DNA of 64,000 nt from Clavaria fumosa (taxonomy: Eukaryota > Basidiomycota > Agaricomycetes > Agaricales > Clavariaceae): the NCBI GenBank assembly GCA_951802425.1, contig OX637805.1, positions 496,001 to 560,000 of the forward strand, read 5' to 3'. How positions within the stretch are numbered: position 1 is the stretch's first letter; every line of letters starts with the position of its first letter. The notes beneath the pieces were generated by a model, which was given only the letters and a program-made list of their open reading frames with translations, was not told the origin of the DNA and made no database searches. Below, piece by piece: positions 12,701 to 55,944 of the stretch. Made by a program: the position numbers and the translations under genes.

Positions 12701-13475
12701 ATCAAAAACCTCTAAATCTATTTCCATCCTGAGGGGCAAGCCGTCAGTGACGGAGCACTGGGGTGTAGATATCCAGACAGACGATGAGCACGGTTGCTAC
12801 TTACTTGACGCTGTGAAGTTCATCCCCAAACGAACTAGGGGTCTTCGAACCTTGCTGGACACTATTCCCCGGCGTCGTTGGCGTGAACATGATGGGGCGA
12901 ATACCTGGAGTGTAGACTACATCTTCACCAACTTTTGTAACCCAGTCCTTCCGCCTCCTCATCCTGTGGTCACCCTCGCTGGAGGTAGTCCCACCGCGAA
13001 CATCATGGTGGACTCTGCTAAATAGCCTGTCGGGTAGAGCCGTCGATAGTGAGTCTGCTCCACCTGGAGAAGGCTGGACTCCGGTCGACACGGGAGAATT
13101 GTACTCCAGGTAGAGAGCAGCCGACAAGGGCAGTTCTGGCATGTATGAGACCGCGGTTTCCTGACGTTGCTCTTGCGGCTGCCTGTCCTGCTGGGCAGTC
13201 GGAGGGGCGGTCGGTGGTCCGAAGGCAAATGGATTTACGTCGGGGTCGAAAGCCTCTTCGAGGGCATCGAGCGGGGAGGTAAATTCCATGGCCAGAGGTC
13301 CGCCTGCGGTGGTGGGACGGTTGGACATGGCTGCCGTGGCGGGACGGTTGAACATGGCTGCCGTGGTGGGACGGTCGGACATGGCTGCCGTGACCCGCGG
13401 GAGAAGACGAGAGAGGACGAGAGCATTGGCTTTGAAGGGGTTGATAAATAACGACGCTCTCGGAGAATTGTTCAC
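9776..13475 (-). CDS. OPT-family oligopeptide transporter, complete
   Basis: This is a plasma-membrane proton-coupled transporter of small peptides (OPT family; glutathione or metal-peptide conjugates are also known substrates). About fifteen exons can be joined. An unusual N-terminal region of about 220 residues is rich in Pro, Thr and Ser (12801-13475). Then come the acidic lead-in DDEDSPYPEVRASVSN, DDPEMPAMTIRMW, and the signature NPGPWNIKEHTLVFIM. Many membrane helices follow (for example TGFALAGMCRRLFVTP and LNFLTFDWLQISWIGSPL). A late KLSHYMKIPPRSTFIGQ matches the OPT motif, followed by INYTSWFLVGFIFQYLIRKKNF. The last exons give KPIEIDWWGNNVFL then NTADFLGTPFRPLPSG and a stop at 9776, the classic OPT end. 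No frame break was found. Two relatives in this window, at 1-1095 and 18930-20570, are broken. Confidence 0.85.
13309..13389 (-). repeat. 27-base tandem repeat, three copies, in the OPT N-terminus
   Basis: Three consecutive 27-base units (13309-13335, 13336-13362, 13363-13389) differ at only a few positions. Read on the minus strand they keep frame and encode AAMSDRPTT, AAMFNRPAT and AAMSNRPTT. The array lies in the presumably cytosolic N-terminal extension and can change length without breaking the frame. Confidence 0.9.
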
Positions 13476-16930: not shown

Positions 16931-17998
16931 TCAACCAGCTTGTGTCTTCTGAACCAGCAGGTTTACCGTGCTCACAAACAGCTCGTCCCCGACAATCGCC
17001 TCAACTAGTTTGTCCCCCTTGAAAGCCTCGTCGAAAATGGCCTGTATAGCCTTCTCGTTCATATTCCTGTAATTTCTGTTAAGCTCATCCCTGACCGATG
17101 CCGACACTGTCTTCCCCAGCTTCTCCGGGAACACATAGATCTGATGCGCAATAATTCCCACCATGACAGGAAGCAGCATCCACATCATGCTCGCTCCGCT
17201 CGCGAGGCCGAGGTGTGCTGTGAGGAAATGCATGACCGCCGCCACAACCGCCGCCGCAACATATTTCTTCACGAGCACGAAAATGATATCCTTTGCCGCG
17301 GCAGTGGTCAGCAGCTTCGTGATCAAGTACTTGAGGTTGAGCGCCACGAGTTTGGCGAGCATGTGCATGACGACGATGGCGATCTGGTGCCCCGTCGCGG
17401 TGGCTGTCAGATGGGTAACTTGGTGCGCGATTATGTGGTGGCTGGTTTGCGTCAGAGTTTGATGCATGTGCTGCATGAGCGAATGGACAAGCTGCTTCCT
17501 CGTATAGGCCGTGAGTGTTATTGCGATCTTGTCTACAACCATGCCCAAGAACGCTTCCAGTATGACTTTGTCTTTGACCAACATCTTCATCAACGCATCC
17601 GCGACATTGCTTGAATGGGATTGGAAAAACGCAGCATATTTCTTCTCCACAATCTCAACGATGGGATCCGTCAGGGCTGATTCGAGCTGATGACCATTAA
17701 GATCTTTGGACCGCACGAAATGATACAGGATTTTGCAGAATTCGATCGGGTCATTTATGTTGGGCTTATGAGTTATATCGGCGCCGTGTCGTCCTCCGCC
17801 ACGCTCGACCACAGCGATACAATCCTCTTTTTGGCTTTCAATATAGACGCGAATGGCAGTTTGGACCTCAGCAAGAAATTCAGCTTTGTCATCGTCAAGT
17901 TTCGCAAGCAGATCATCGGATGCTCCGCTGGCTGCAACAAGCTATGAGGTCCTGTGATCATTGGAGGGATGAAACGTACGTTGTGACAGTGATGACAT
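16931..17998 (-). CDS. Unknown fungal protein with histidine-rich hydrophobic core
   Basis: I do not recognise a named family. A tiny first exon (ATG at 17998, MSSLSQ) splices at a GT-AG intron of about 48 bases to one long exon. The N-terminal part is soluble and acidic (SDDLLAKLDDDKAEFLAEVQ, then THKPNINDPIEFCKILYHF). The middle, roughly residues 110-260, is hydrophobic with many His and Ala residues. It includes HHIIAHQVTHLTATATGHQI and KDIIFVLVKKYVAAAVVAAV, and MMWMLLPVMVGIIAHQIYVF looks membrane-spanning. The C-terminal part is amphipathic (FPEKLGKTVSASVRDELNRN, ending TVNLLVQKTQAG). The uninterrupted 300-codon exon, unlike the intron-dense neighbours, and its place among pseudogenes suggest an accessory gene. 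A pore- or membrane-active role would be speculation. Confidence 0.65.
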
Positions 17999-33589: not shown

Positions 33590-36500
33590 TCAGCTAAACC
33601 GAGTATTCTTCTTCACACTCCAACCTATGCTGAGCCCCACAAGTACTACTGGAAGTACACTGACCAATTCCCCCAAACCTGCCCACCTTGGCTCAATGCT
33701 CACCTTCACCGCCACGCCGCTTGCCAACACGATGGCAATAATCATATACATGACACACCAGCCCAGGGAGATCCTGGCCCTCCTGTCTGCAGCACTTGCA
33801 ATACCAAACAGCACGTTAACTCCCCGCTCGATGTCTGGGAAGAGCAGCACAGCACCCGCAGAGGTGCGCGCAACATCCGAGCTCGACACGACAGCAAGTG
33901 CCGCGTCTGCCGTCGCAAGTGCAGGTGCATCATTAGTCCCATCCCCGATGAACAAGACTCTTTCGTGCTTGTCGCGCTGCAATGACTGTATAAATGCCCG
34001 CTTGTCTTCGGGCATGCACCCCGCCAGCAAGTTCTCTTCGCTCACGCCGATTTGTGCAGCGAATCGTGCAACAGCGGCAGCGTTGTCCCCACTACTGATA
34101 AAAACGGTCTTGCCACTCCTCTTAAGCGAGTCCACAAGCCGGGAGGCCTCGGATCGAGGAAGGTCGGCGAGGCCATAGACTGCAATGCACGTGCCGCCGA
34201 GCGTCACGGTGAAAAGCGAGTGCCCGGACCTGAGGCAATGTGCGACAGCAGGGTGAGAGGCGGCGCCAGTGAAGGATGCTTTCCCGCCCAGAATCTCATA
34301 GCCACCCAGGGTGGCACGCATGCCCTTGCCTGGCAATGTGGATATATCCGATAGGCGGAAGATCTCCTTCCAATGGTTGGGCGGTACAGCCTCCGTCAAA
34401 AAACGGTGCACCCCCTGTGCAATCGGATGGTTGTTCCCTTTGACGAGTTCATAAACGAGACGTTCTGCACCCTCCACAAGCACTTCTGACTGCACAACTG
34501 TGAACAGACCTTGGGAAAGCGTCCCGGTCTTGTCGAAAACGACCACAGAGACATGTTGCATGACGTGCAAGATGTCTGCGGACCGCACCAAGATGCCCGA
34601 GCGAGCCAAGACACGCATGGAAACCGACGTAACCATCGGGACCTGCATATCAATAGTTAGCAACGGCACTGGCCACTGTCGGTAATACTCACGGCTAGCC
34701 CAATTGCGCACGGACAGCTCACGACGAGGACCGCAATAGCGTGCATGAGTCCATCTACCACGGCGTCCACCTTTGTCCGTTTCCTTACAAATACATTGAC
34801 AATAACCCACGCCATGAACGCGAGCCCCGCAACAGCCACTGCAAGTGGGAGGATGACTGCTGACAGTCTGTCGGCGAGGTCTTGCAGCGGCGCGCGTGAG
34901 CTCTGCGCGTGCCGGACGAGTTGCGTAATCCTGGCCAGTGAATTCTCGTGCAACAGCCTTGTCACCTCAACGCGCAGGACCCCATCGAGGTTTATCGTCC
35001 CTGCTATCACGCGGCTCCCGCGGATCTTGGAAACAGCGGCGCTCTCGCCTGTCACAGACGACTCGTCGACATCGCTCGAGCCAGAGAGGACCACACCGTC
35101 TGTGACGATGCGTGTGGTCGGGAGAATCTCGATGCAGTCGCCGTAGTGCAAGAGCCGAGAGTCGACCGTACAGCTCGTCTCACCCTCGACCACCCGGACG
35201 TCCTTTGTCTGCAGCTGGTGCAGAGCGTGAATGGCAGACCCCGCAGACTTGCGCGTGGCGCCTTGTACGGTGCGACCAAGGTAGATGAGCGTGATGAGGA
35301 GCGTGCACGTCTCGAAGAATGGCGCCGAGAAAGGCATGTGTGCGGCTTGAAATGCGTATGCGACGACGGAGAAGACGTACGACACGAATGTGCTGACAGC
35401 TGCGAGGACATTCAGGTCTACCTGGTGGATGAAGAGGACGGAACGCGCAGAGGCCCCATACATAGGGGCTGCAAGGACCTGCACGATCGTCGCCAGTCCG
35501 AGCGAGATCCCACCATAAAGCACCGGAGACGGAGAGAGGCGAGCCCAGGTAAGCACTAGGACGGGGACTGTGCAAGCGATGCAGAGAGTTGTGCGAATTA
35601 TCAGATTCCACAGGTCACGAGTAGCAGGGTCGTGGGCTTGCTCGATTGACTTGGGCGCCAATTGCCCTCCGTGTTCTTCCAGCTCTGCAAGGACCTCTCG
35701 AGGAAGGAGTGCTTTCTCGCCGATGACACGGAAAGAGACATCCCAGATGTCGCCGCTAGATCCGTGAGAGATGTCATATTTGTCCATCAGGACGGCTGGC
35801 GGTCGCCCTCTAAACACCACAGGTAAGGTGATGTGTGAGGAAGTCTCTGTATCCTTTCTCGGCATGTCCCTGACCTTGAATCCGGTCGCACGCGCGAGTT
35901 GTGCCACGATCGCTGTCGAAGATATGACCTCTGGATCGTAACGAAGCTGCGCCATTCCAGCGAAATAATCTGTTTCGACCGTTGTGACGGATGGAAGACG
36001 CATGAGAACACGGGCAACTTTGGAGATACAATCAGGGCAGTCCATGCCCCCGATCTCGAGGTGAAGAAGAGTGGACCCCGCTTTCGGAGCCTGGGAATTT
36101 CCAGCTGCAACTAAATCCGCCTTCAAATCCTCGGTGGACACAACCTCGCAACCTCGCAAAGGCCCGGATGGACGGTCGAGAATGAGGGGCGATTCATTCA
36201 AGAAGCAGCAGGCGCGACGGCAGCACTTCTCCAGGATGGCGCAGCAGTAGCGAAGATTTTCCGCGTATCGCTCGAGGCTATTCAAAGCTACTTCTATGCT
36301 GCCTGTTTCCCCTATTAAGCAGGTGTCATCATTAGATCGTCACGGAGGCTGGAATAGGTACCTCGATGCGTTAATGTGGCACGGCGTACCATATCTGCGA
36401 TACAACAGGAACAAGCGCTTTGATCGGACGCTGTTTATGATTGGCATTTAGCAAATGCAATAGACGCCAAGAGATCAGCTTCATACACGACATTCCACAG

Positions 36501-39037: not shown

Positions 39038-42000
39038 ATGAACTCGTACCCCATCGAACTGCTGGCGCAGCTGGCACCTGTCATGTTCGTCGCAGGCCTC
39101 GGCCAAGCTGCTCCGCTGCCGGCTGCCATTGCGACGCAGCCTGCTTCACACCCGCCTCTGGCTCTCACTCTCCAAGCCCAGCCCCAAGACCCATTCGCCT
39201 CTCTTTGCGCGCGACTGCGCGAGGCTCTTCTCTCTTGGCGCAGAACTGCGGTCTGGCAGCCGGACAAAGCCAACACGTTCCAGGCAGTCTTAGTTGATAA
39301 GGACGTCAGGTTCCCACCTCGCAAAGTGGCCCCGTCTGAAGATGCCTCTTTCTCCGTCGCTCATTCGCCACTTTCCCCGCTGACCCCGTCCTCACCGCTC
39401 TTTCCGGACGGTCTGATCGCGCCTATATGGATCCGCAAACACACGACCCTCGTGCCCAGCGTCTTTGTTATGTTCCTCCGTCTCTTCGAGCAATCCCCAG
39501 CCGCGTCGGATGCAGAAGGAGAAAAGGAAGAGAAGAGGAAAGACGCGGAGCTCTCCGCAGAAATAGCAGCGAGGAAGAAGGCTGTCGCTGAAAGAGGGAT
39601 CAAACTCACCGTAGTTCTCATGGCGAGTCGCAGGATGCTGGGTAGGTCGTGTACCTCGCATCGCGTAGAAAGCGAGCAGTTCTAAACGCTCTCCTAGATG
39701 ATCCAGCTCTCGACGCGCGTCTCACGTATATCCGCAGGCAGGGTAACCTAGACTCCCGCGCATCTTTGTTTGTTCTGAGCCCCGTCAGTGCCGCTGAATT
39801 GACCGATTTCATTCAGAGGTATGCAATCTGTTTTTATATTGGGATGACTCGAATTCTTGCATCCAGCCTTCAACAAGCTCTCTATGAACCAGCGATCGAC
39901 TACTACATTGCACATTCGAAACGTGTCCGGCGGAAACGGAATCGACATTCTCAAGCCGTCTCTTCGTATTCGCATCCTCCGCTGCCCCCTATGAGTGGCG
40001 CTCACGCTGCTCGACCGTTAAGACCTGAGGGTTGGACCGTGCGTTACGAGTATAAGATGGCCTGTTTCGCAGAGTTTCGCGGTGAGGATGAAGTGGCACT
40101 CAAGTGCGTTTGTCTTGATGCTACATTGAAATTGTCTTGATTGTGTATAGACACTACCAGGATGCGTATTCTGCGCTTGCGCTTATGTTTGGGTCCACAG
40201 CAATACTGCCGCCGCGCACGAAGCGATGGGCAGAAGCGAAGGTTCTGGCGGACTGCATCAGCCTCAAGGTTTGCCGTTCTTCTCCGTTTCCCCACCCGTG
40301 AGCACTTTACCCAATCATCTGCCGCGACGTACAGATTTGCAAGCTGTATCTGTACAACAACGAGCACATTCTCGCCCTGTCCCAGAACGTCACTCACGTC
40401 CGCAAATTCTCCGACCTCTCGAGAGGATGGGGAATTGGGGAGGAGACGTTTGAGTATTGGAGTTGGATGGCAAAACAACACAGGCTGTTTGCGGAGCTGC
40501 TGGAGCAAGGGACGAAGGGTACACTCGTGATCCCAGTTCATCGGCCCCAACCTCCGCCGACGCAACCACGACCGAATATCGGCGCAAATGTCGTCGAAGC
40601 TGACTCTATGAGGGCGCTCGGACTCAATCCTATTCAAGCGCTCCAGCATCCGGGTTTCTATTATTATATGGCAGCGAGGTGTACAGAGATTCGAAGAGAT
40701 AGATTTCTGGCTGCGCTTGGGAGCGAAGTTAGTAGGTTCTTTCTTGACTTTCCTTGGGCACCTTCTCACTTTGGTCCCGCCTGTGCCAGTCTACTTCCTA
40801 TCCGATGTCTCCCGGTTATGCCAACGAGAAGAAAGTGGATCATTTGGCTGCCGTTCTTGAGGTCCGTATTGTGACGGAGTGGTTTCAACTCTGCGGTGAA
40901 TCTTTTGTTGAAACTCGCCGTTCTCGCCGTGTCTAGCTTTATACCAAGGCGTACGAGTTTTTCAAACGATTCGCGCCCACTCCGGCGCCGGGCGAGACAC
41001 AGACACAGAGCCGTCTGACCCTTTTCATCGCTTATCGAATCGCCCAAACGTACTATAATTCAGGCAAGTTTGATATGGCAGTCAGGTTCGTTGTTGTCAT
41101 CGCCTCTTTTCGCGTTTCGTGCGTGGATAAGTGCGTTGTGTCACTAACGTGTTTGCCAACGCATGTGCCGCAGATTCTTCGAGCGCATCGCGAAGACGTA
41201 CCGCAAGGAGAAATGGGGATCGCTGCTCCGGCCACTTTTATCGACCTGGTATGCATGTGCGCAGCGGCTCGGAGATGTTGAATTGAGTGTCAAGTTACTT
41301 ATAGAGATGCTGGGGCATGGTAATAGACTTGTTATTTCGCGGATAATGAATGGTCGTCTGACGCTGTGTTTTTTCTGTGCACAGGAGCGTCGATCCATGA
41401 GCACACAGGAGAGTCGATCCATGAGCACACAGGAGAGTCGATCCATGAGCAAGAGCAGGCGAGCCTGGTGGAGGACTTGGTTCTGATCCTCCGGGTTAGT
41501 TGTTTGCTTTAGGCATGGGGTTAACTTACGGGAGGTGTCGTAGAACACGGTTCCGTCGTCCAAGGACGAGCCATTGGTAGTCGACTTTTCAGAATCCGCG
41601 CCAATCTGTACGTCTTAATCTTTCGATGATGTTCGCTGCCTTACGGCTGGGTATGATATCCCTTTACTGACACTACCCCAGTTGCTCCGCGCGTCGTATT
41701 TTGGAAACCTGAAGTTAATGTTGGAGAGTCTTCTGCTTTTCAGCTTTCAATCACAGCTCCTTCAATGGACTTCGAGGCTTTACCAGTATCATCTCTAGTG
41801 GTCGAATTTGCGGATGATATTCCACCAATCATAGTCCGGCATCTCGACTGCGATCCCGCATCCCTACATCCTATCCGACGAATAGACCTTGGCCATACTG
41901 CTGTGCCAAAATCATCTGACGCGGACGTGCCGCCGCGAGAAGTTCAGGCATATCTACGCTGGCAACGCGGTTCCACACTCATATTTGCGGGCACCATCGC

Positions 42001-54988: not shown

Positions 54989-54995
54989 TATAAAA
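54989..54995 (+). promoter_or_regulatory. TATA box of the repeat-peptide gene
   Basis: A perfect TATAAAA lies 120 bases upstream of the ATG at 55115, in the expected position for a strongly expressed, regulated fungal gene. The intervening leader has CT-rich stretches (ctctctcgctc near 55064-55090). Confidence 0.65.
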
Positions 54996-55114
54996 GGCGA
55001 CATCGAGGACACCAATTCCCAGCGCTCCTCAGCTAGCAACGGGCAACCCAGTCGTTTAGACAAGCTCTCTCGCTCATACACCGCTCTCGCTCTCACAAAC
55101 ACACACTTTTCGCG

Positions 55115-55944
55115 ATGCAATCCAAGATCTTCGTCCTCCTTGCTATCTTGGGCGGTAAGCCTGCTTCCAGGCCAACTTCTTTATTCTGCTTGCTCACTTC
55201 CTTTCTTCAGCTGCCCACCTTGCCCCAGCCGCCCCTCTCCCGCTAACTGACTTGCTCGCCGCGCGCGCACCTGAGCCTGAGCCTGTATGCCTCAGAGGTA
55301 TCTGCAACCGCGAGGCTGCACCAGAGCCCGAACCCGAACCGGTTTGCCTCAGAGGCATTTGCAATCGCGAAGCTGCACCAGAGCCCGAACCCGAACCCGT
55401 TTGCCTCAGAGGCATCTGCAACCGCGAGGCTGCACCGGAGCCCGAACCCGAACCCGTTTGCCTCAGAGGCATTTGCAATCGCGAGGCTGCACCGGAGCCC
55501 GAACCCGAACCCGAACCCGTTTGCCTCAGAGGCATCTGCAACCGCGAGGCTGCACCGGAGCCCGAACCCGAACCCGTTTGCCTCAGAGGCATCTGCAATC
55601 GCGAGGCTGCACCGGAGCCCGAACCCGAACCCGTTTGCCTCAGGGGCATTTGCAACCGCGAGGCTGCACCTGAGCCCGAACCCGAACCCGTTTGCCTCAG
55701 AGGCATCTGCAATCGCGAGGCTGCACCGGAGCCCGAACCAGAACCCGTTTGCCTCAGGGGCATTTGCAACCGCGAGGCTGCACCTGAGCCCGAACCCGAA
55801 CCCGTTTGCCTCAGAGGCGTCTGCAACCGCGAGGCTGCACCTGAGCCCGAACCCGAACCTGTTTGCCTCAGAGGTATCTGCAATCGCGAGGCTGCACCGG
55901 AGCCCGAACCCGAACCCGTTTGCCTCAGAGGCATCTGCAACTAA
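55115..55944 (+). CDS. Secreted precursor with twelve VCLRGICN peptide repeats (alpha-factor-like)
   Basis: Exon 1 (55115-55154) and exon 2 (55211-55944) give a 257-residue protein. Residues 1-20 ([20 protein letters not shown]) form a signal peptide, and a short pro-segment ends LTDLLAAR. Twelve repeats then fill the rest: spacer, VCLRGICN, then Arg-Glu-Ala leading into the next. The protein stops inside the twelfth, after CN. Spacers are AP-EP-EP (first), [10 protein letters not shown] (ten times) and the same with one extra EP (fifth). All are X-Ala or X-Pro dipeptides, as removed by Ste13-type dipeptidyl peptidases after Kex2-type cleavage. Cleavage would be at single Arg, not the usual Lys-Arg. 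Two Cys flank LRGI, so a small disulfide ring is possible, as in ascomycete alpha-type pheromones. Repeat 10 has Val for Ile. The role is unknown: a signalling peptide or a modified (RiPP-like) peptide are the main ideas. Confidence 0.85.
55267..55941 (+). repeat. 57-base tandem repeat, twelve copies
   Basis: The coding repeats are nearly identical at DNA level. Most differences are third-base changes in ggcatttgcaa versus ggcatctgcaa. One unit has 6 extra bases (one Glu-Pro) and the first has 12 fewer. The high DNA identity points to recent amplification or gene conversion. It also explains the long spurious open frames on the minus strand here. Confidence 0.95.

Follow-up and report, generated by a model that had tools for sequence, protein, structure and literature searches.

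The window, i.e. the whole stretch of 64,000 nucleotides analysed here (positions 496001-560000 of contig C12 in a 48.8-Mb assembly of 17 contigs), contains a precursor gene that is read at 55115-55944 on the forward strand and encodes 257 amino acids across one intron of 56 nt. The ATG at 55115 opens a first exon of 40 nt (55115-55154) with the start of a presumed signal peptide. It is followed by a phase-1 intron (55155-55210, gtaagc...cag) and by exon 2 (55211-55944) which comprises the remaining signal and pro-segment, an array of twelve cores and the stop codon TAA (55942-55944). The intron was picked by eye among three open GT-AG choices; the two alternatives (55133-55170 and 55155-55228) change the N-terminal region only. 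A TATA-box-like element (TATAAAAG, 54989-54996, forward strand) is located 126 bp before the ATG. The pro-segment ends with the leader arginine (55264-55266), which is the first presumed cleavage site (DLLAAR|AP), and the leader spacer R-AP-EP-EP connects it with the array at 55285-55941. Each core has eight residues encoded by 24 nt (the first at 55285-55308, the last at 55918-55941). Eleven of them read VCLRGICN and one, core 10 at 55804-55827, reads VCLRGVCN. The spacers have the form R-(X-A/X-P)n; ten of the eleven inter-core spacers are identical, one has an extra EP, and core 12 directly adjoins the stop codon. TRF reports the same array as a 57-bp repeat with 11.4 copies and a score of 1093. 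This reading bears out the anatomy given in the first-pass annotation, namely a hydrophobic signal-like start, a pro-segment ending in Arg and twelve near-identical cores preceded by X-A/X-P spacers.

Since 57 is a multiple of three, the minus strand has long open frames over the array too (240 and 248 amino acids), and openness of the frame by itself is no proof of coding. Among twelve distinct substitutions from the consensus unit eleven are silent in the proposed frame, with an expectation of 24% for all changes or 33% for transitions. This corresponds to a binomial P of about 1e-6 to 5e-5, in which the changes are treated as independent, a condition that may be untrue within one array. In the other five frames 1, 2, 2, 9 and 0 of the 12 changes are silent, and the nine silent changes in one minus-strand frame probably result from its third positions coinciding with those of the coding frame. 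Eleven units entered this comparison, core 12 not being followed by a spacer; for the unit whose spacer is extended, the first 57 bases were used.

Three single-core relatives are found approximately 33-37 kb downstream of the window gene on the same contig. Searching the genome itself at the protein level returned the window gene and two further places on this contig (E 2e-4 and 0.01), and the third relative came from a pattern search. Paralogue A lies at C12:584684-584479 on the minus strand. Paralogue B (C12:587634-587429, minus strand) ends with NMLLAR-EAEAAPEP-ICGRGLCN-stop, and paralogue C (C12:588872-589082, plus strand) with DAIAAR-VAEPEALPEP-VCGRGGCN-stop; these two are divergently oriented neighbours. 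All three end with R-(X-A/X-P)4-5-[VI]C-x-RG-x-CN-stop and share the plan of the window gene with a first exon of 40-43 nt and a phase-1 intron, the whole protein having about 45-52 residues. The intron acceptor of paralogue B is uncertain, being either TAG or, as in the four-sequence alignment A1, AAG. TATA-like elements are present upstream of paralogue A (at -136, CATAAAAC) and paralogue C (at -164, TATAAAGA) and none was found upstream of paralogue B. A common promoter motif was not detected, as the 400-bp upstream regions of these genes have no 11-mer in common.

The pattern C-x-R-G-x-C-N-stop has five matches across the 48.8 Mb, four of which are the members described above, and the reversed-pattern control gave none. 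The fifth match, on contig C3, has no leader and is not counted in the family. A looser pattern (E-P-x-C-x-x-G-x-C) yielded 22 matches, comprising twelve in the window gene, three in the paralogues and seven elsewhere, with 25 matches for its reversed control; the seven were rejected as none of them (0/7) has a leader or a dipeptide spacer. When the surrounding 102 kb were scanned with a regular expression, the combination of core and spacer plan was seen in the four members only. By sequence, the window gene can thus be regarded as the member with an amplified core in a family of four genes spanning 38 kb, and its predicted repeat unit is independently confirmed by the three single-core paralogues. 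This constellation, together with the single Arg at every presumed site, extends the first-pass annotation, the relatives being situated outside the window.

Repetitive secreted proteins are common in fungal walls, and the array could also be understood as part of a wall or surface protein that remains whole. We consider this very unlikely, because the three relatives with one core and about 45-52 residues are too short for a wall scaffold and because both the dipeptide register and the core ends match processing sites.

All four deduced proteins possess a hydrophobic N-terminal stretch of 12 residues with a mean Kyte-Doolittle value of 2.4-3.2, and a signal peptide is presumed from this hydrophobicity. 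Their leader sites show Leu or Ile at P4 and Ala at P2 ([LI]-x-A-R in 4/4 genes), and the spacer site of the window gene reads I/V-C-N-R. Dibasic pairs do not occur in the four proteins, every presumed site being a single Arg. In every spacer of the four genes X-A/X-P dipeptides fill the stretch from the basic site to the core. The paralogue spacers vary in length and sequence, yet Ala or Pro is found at each second position; when residues were shuffled within these three spacers, the combined odds of obtaining this register were about 4e-6. The cores of the four genes follow the consensus [VI]-C-[LG]-R-G-[IVLG]-C-N with an internal Arg-Gly that is invariant in 15 of 15 cores.

We suggest, with a probability of roughly three in four, that the window gene and its relatives encode secreted precursors working like ascomycete alpha-factor precursors, whose peptide most likely would serve as an extracellular signal to the producer or its neighbours through a receptor other than Ste2. 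The precursor would enter the ER and a kexin-type protease would cut behind the lone Arg that closes the leader (..[LI]-x-A-R|) and behind the one in each spacer (..C-N-R|). A carboxypeptidase would then take off the C-terminal Arg, and a dipeptidyl aminopeptidase of the Ste13/DPP type would strip the X-A/X-P pairs up to the core, where trimming presumably halts because the second core residue is Cys. Each twelve-core precursor would yield eleven copies of VCLRGICN and one of VCLRGVCN, and the paralogues would release their own octapeptide cores including ICGRGLCN (B) and VCGRGGCN (C). In the paralogues and in core 12 of the window gene the core stands directly before the stop codon, so that the Asn C-terminus would arise there without further trimming. 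With the mature C-terminus placed at Asn and the dipeptide register kept in the single-core relatives, alpha-factor-like processing is a well supported prediction. A disulfide within the peptide between the two core cysteines is possible. For the Fusarium alpha-pheromone WCTWRGQPCW, whose Cys pair is comparable, the intramolecular disulfide is reported to form only in the presence of membrane mimetics, and the oxidised peptide to be inactive (PMC7289986).

Homologues of the presumed enzymes are encoded in the genome, as the first-pass annotation had proposed to check. A kexin-like protease on contig C1 combines a Peptidase_S8 domain with a P-domain (best PDB match Kexin 1ot5, 5.3e-73), a DPP4-like N-terminal domain together with an S9 domain is encoded on contig C8, and matches to S10 carboxypeptidases are located on contigs C13 and C4. 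The S10 family spans other carboxypeptidases too, so these matches fall short of Kex1 proper. Repeat anatomy, single-core relatives and encoded enzyme homologues together lend support to the originally suggested Kex2/Ste13 logic with up to twelve copies of a small two-Cys peptide.

Kexins favour an aliphatic residue four places before the cut, and monobasic sites are regarded as less favourable for them. A point against the proposed processing is that all sites are monobasic and that the Arg within the core looks equally cleavable. By the P4 criterion VCLR|GI (with Val or Ile) seems as good as the presumed sites, and LR|G and GR|G share the aliphatic P4 with them. If the core Arg were also cut, the products would be VCLR and GICN as a two-chain, disulfide-linked molecule or as two linear tetrapeptides. 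The invariant Arg-Gly would fit such a cleavage. It fits a turn equally well, since the residue before Arg shifts from Leu to Gly while R-G-x-C-N remains constant, and the loop of the Fusarium alpha-pheromone holds an uncut Arg-Gly (PMC7289986); we regard the additional cut as improbable. Cuts after single Arg are reported for mushroom precursors expressed in Pichia (PMC9769878).

The first-pass annotation had placed the predicted signal outside the described basidiomycete pheromone system. In this form the claim is not borne out, because basidiomycete KEX2-processed repeat proteins (KEPs) with a clear STE13 signature, one of them with two cysteines, have been in print since 2019 and were proposed to be non-mating hormones (Le Marquer et al. 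2019, PMC6339444), and STE13-type mushroom peptides were detected by mass spectrometry in Pleurotus in 2022 (Vogt et al. 2022, PMC9769878). The STE13-signature proteins Pleurotus 1091723/1439342 and C. cinerea 490115 have in common with the window family a secreted precursor, short repeated cores, X-A/X-P pairs after the basic site and a basidiomycete host. They were found, however, by their dibasic sites, and the cores named in the published text end in Trp (..AADW, ..PSW), whereas the present family has single Arg sites, a C-x4-C core ending with Asn and relatives with a single core per gene. The KEP of Trichosporon oleaginosus, with the core QSWGGCGGRGTPCW, is also basidiomycetous and combines a STE13 signature with two cysteines around an Arg-Gly loop, but its core has 14 residues, contains Trp and shows the PCW end known from Sordariomycetes, and its sites are dibasic by definition of the survey (PMC6339444). 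Similarly, the two-Cys alpha-pheromones of Pezizomycotina, such as Fusarium WCTWRGQPCW, display a hydrophobic residue, Cys, an Arg-Gly loop and Cys next to last, with processing of the Kex2/Ste13 type. In contrast with the window family they have six instead of four residues between the cysteines and Trp ends, and they are perceived by Ste2. Rep1 of Ustilago maydis is a Kex2-processed precursor in a basidiomycete as well, but it is described as having no STE13 signature and as giving rise to peptides that become attached to hyphae (PMC6339444). What appears to be new here, as far as sequences can tell, is the exclusive use of single-Arg sites, the C-x4-C core and the mixture of twelve-core and one-core genes in one family; the class as such was already known.

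The automatic filters of three KEP surveys, as described in their methods, ask for dibasic KR/RR/KK(/RK) sites and for three or more repeats that resemble each other. Umemura (2020) catalogued 7878 KEPs (PMC7329392), and Vogt et al. supplemented their C. cinerea set by visual inspection of the repeat output (PMC9769878). With its twelve similar repeats the window gene lies above the minimum of three and the paralogues with one core each lie below it; the dibasic sites between repeats that belong to the published KEP definition are absent from the window gene. This means that such screens would pass over the window gene and its single-core kin. As single-Arg, single-core precursors exist beside a multi-core one, published counts of such fungal peptides are probably too low.

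Relatives outside this genome, which the first-pass annotation had proposed to seek as VCLRGIC-type repeats in other Agaricomycetes, did not turn up in the collections searched. Protein database searches gave none with the full precursor among 7990 candidates scored, none with spacers masked as X among 2619 candidates at E up to 10 and none with alignment A1 among 556 candidates at E up to 10. The full-precursor search was probably swamped by E-P repeats. In viral contigs 32 pattern matches were obtained and none was confirmed. As fungi may be thinly covered in these collections, the results are no evidence for a confinement of the family to this genome. Among the literature matches listed for the core strings only the text string VCLRG occurred, in an unrelated paper on paracetamol, and no publication on the present family was among the papers listed in further literature searches; these searches covered texts outside the supplementary tables of the KEP surveys.

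Two database assignments were rejected. The array (window 55252-55941) reaches 30.9 bits with the Pfam model PF08093 (Toxin_23) at a cut-off of 22.2. This score is a repeat sum, since the best stretch covers eight residues (profile positions 20-27 of 30), no stretch passes alone and the three single-core relatives have no match. Automatic annotation could therefore mislabel the array as a relative of spider toxins. For paralogue A the top-ranking PDB sequence (E 0.0078), a DPBB protein with a designed-sounding name, has no stretch passing alone either and was taken as chance. None of the five sequences scanned matched a Pfam alpha-factor model, even with E allowed up to 1, and the resemblance of the cores was judged by eye.

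Mating pheromones of basidiomycetes are farnesylated CaaX peptides that have no signal peptide. The window family shares with them the phylum and the presumed nature of small peptide signals, but 4/4 of its proteins end with ..R-G-x-C-N, having Cys second from last and no CaaX box. STE2 (PF02116) had no match in a profile search of the genome, a search that rang in no control genome (the controls being prokaryotic), whereas STE3 (PF02076) had 23 exon-level matches, 20 of them on contig C5, three on contig C9 and none on C12. The weight of the STE2 negative derives from the STE3 matches in the same genome and from the reported restriction of Ste2-type receptors to Ascomycota (PMC12842992). By these tests on STE2, on alpha-factor Pfam models and on the C-terminus, the predicted products are neither ascomycete alpha-factors nor CaaX pheromones. 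The STE3-type exons are situated at C5:601849-616140, C5:635363-635503, C5:763590-764594 and C9:832177-833204; 17 of the 23 matches fall within about 14 kb on C5 and perhaps mark a mating (pheromone/receptor) locus. The many STE3 matches suggest that the genome is Agaricomycete-like.

The secreted peptides might also act on other organisms, i.e. as antimicrobials, anti-grazer compounds or host-directed effectors, instead of serving as a self-signal. The missing Ste2 match and the variation of cores among paralogues are in line with such a role. Six kep knockouts of C. cinerea are reported to have no apparent phenotype in axenic culture, and their authors favour a role in the biotic environment (PMC9769878), which at the same time makes a role as developmental hormone harder to argue. 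On the other hand, no antibacterial activity was reported for synthetic KEP peptides of C. cinerea (PMC9769878), and a core that is short and carries only one Arg seems atypical for a membrane-active peptide. Furthermore, toxic cyclic tetrapeptides and epichloecyclins are described as products of precursors that lack the STE13 signature, although an effector role is kept open in the same source (PMC6339444). Action on other organisms is a possible but doubtful explanation.

In the surroundings 161 frames of at least 100 amino acids were counted in 102 kb after overlapped ones had been dropped, and 39 of them were run against Pfam, 30 at E 0.001 (two of these cut at locus ends) and nine more, with one repeated, at E 1. 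Among the 30 frames twelve matched nothing. The matches obtained comprise a metal P-type ATPase, an OPT transporter, Hsp70, a TMEM70-like protein, an FMN dehydrogenase, AAA_12, a carbamoyltransferase, eIF4G-like genes, TrkH, Brix and an amino acid permease. No receptor of the GPCR type was seen near the family genes among these 39 of 161 frames, where split exons could hide one. A frame of 336 amino acids at 16934-17941 (minus strand) of the window has four hydrophobic stretches and no convincing match in Pfam or among PDB sequences; judged by eye, it is a helical protein with many charged residues at either end, and it was set aside as no obvious seven-helix receptor.

Dikaritins have precursors of the same architecture class and genes of the DUF3328 type reportedly accompany 22% of KEP genes (PMC7329392), so that the core could in principle be cross-linked by UstYa-type oxidases. 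UstYa (DUF3328, PF11807) had, however, no match in the genome search, for which no control rang, nor in the 39 of 161 neighbouring frames, in which split exons could be missed, and the core contains no aromatic residue. Nothing speaks for an assignment to the dikaritins, which we consider extremely improbable.

Returning to secreted precursors of alpha-factor type, a wider proposal can be made tentatively, and we hold it for rather doubtful in its full extent. The four genes may represent a mushroom peptide-hormone family of alpha-factor build in which all sites are single Arg, the number of cores in a gene ranges from one to twelve, and perception depends on receptors of neither the Ste2 nor the Ste3 class. 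Its active face would be the C-x-R-G-x-C ring or dithiol, and paralogous cores would be distinct signals. Such a family might be present in many Agaricomycetes and have gone unseen there, because proteins with fewer than three repeats or without dibasic sites fell outside the surveys. The relevant passages of the KEP literature give neither a receptor nor a function for basidiomycete alpha-factor-like precursors (PMC6339444, PMC9769878). In this respect the locus is a compact test case, offering four linked genes, three main predicted octapeptides and one variant core, exact masses and a defined mature end. The calculated [M+H]+ values for the reduced and the disulfide form are 877.438 and 875.423 for VCLRGICN, 835.391 and 833.376 for ICGRGLCN, and 765.313 and 763.297 for VCGRGGCN.

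Some further elements of the region deserve mention. A pair of eIF4G-like genes with MIF4G domains (L032:4537-5982 and L029:2-1231, both on the plus strand) lies in the interval that separates the window gene from its single-core relatives and is likely a tandem duplication. Two frames of 112 amino acids at L031:1815-2150 (minus strand) and L031:3443-3778 (plus strand) have opposite orientation at a distance of about 1.3 kb; comparison of their beginnings showed nearly the same first 25 residues, perhaps indicating an inverted duplication or a mobile element. Within the window a heavy-metal P-type ATPase is encoded at 33593-36339 (minus strand) with HMA, E1-E2 ATPase and hydrolase domains over two frames, and short minisatellites occur at 13304-13392 and 41380-41451 with periods of 27 and 24, both being multiples of three.
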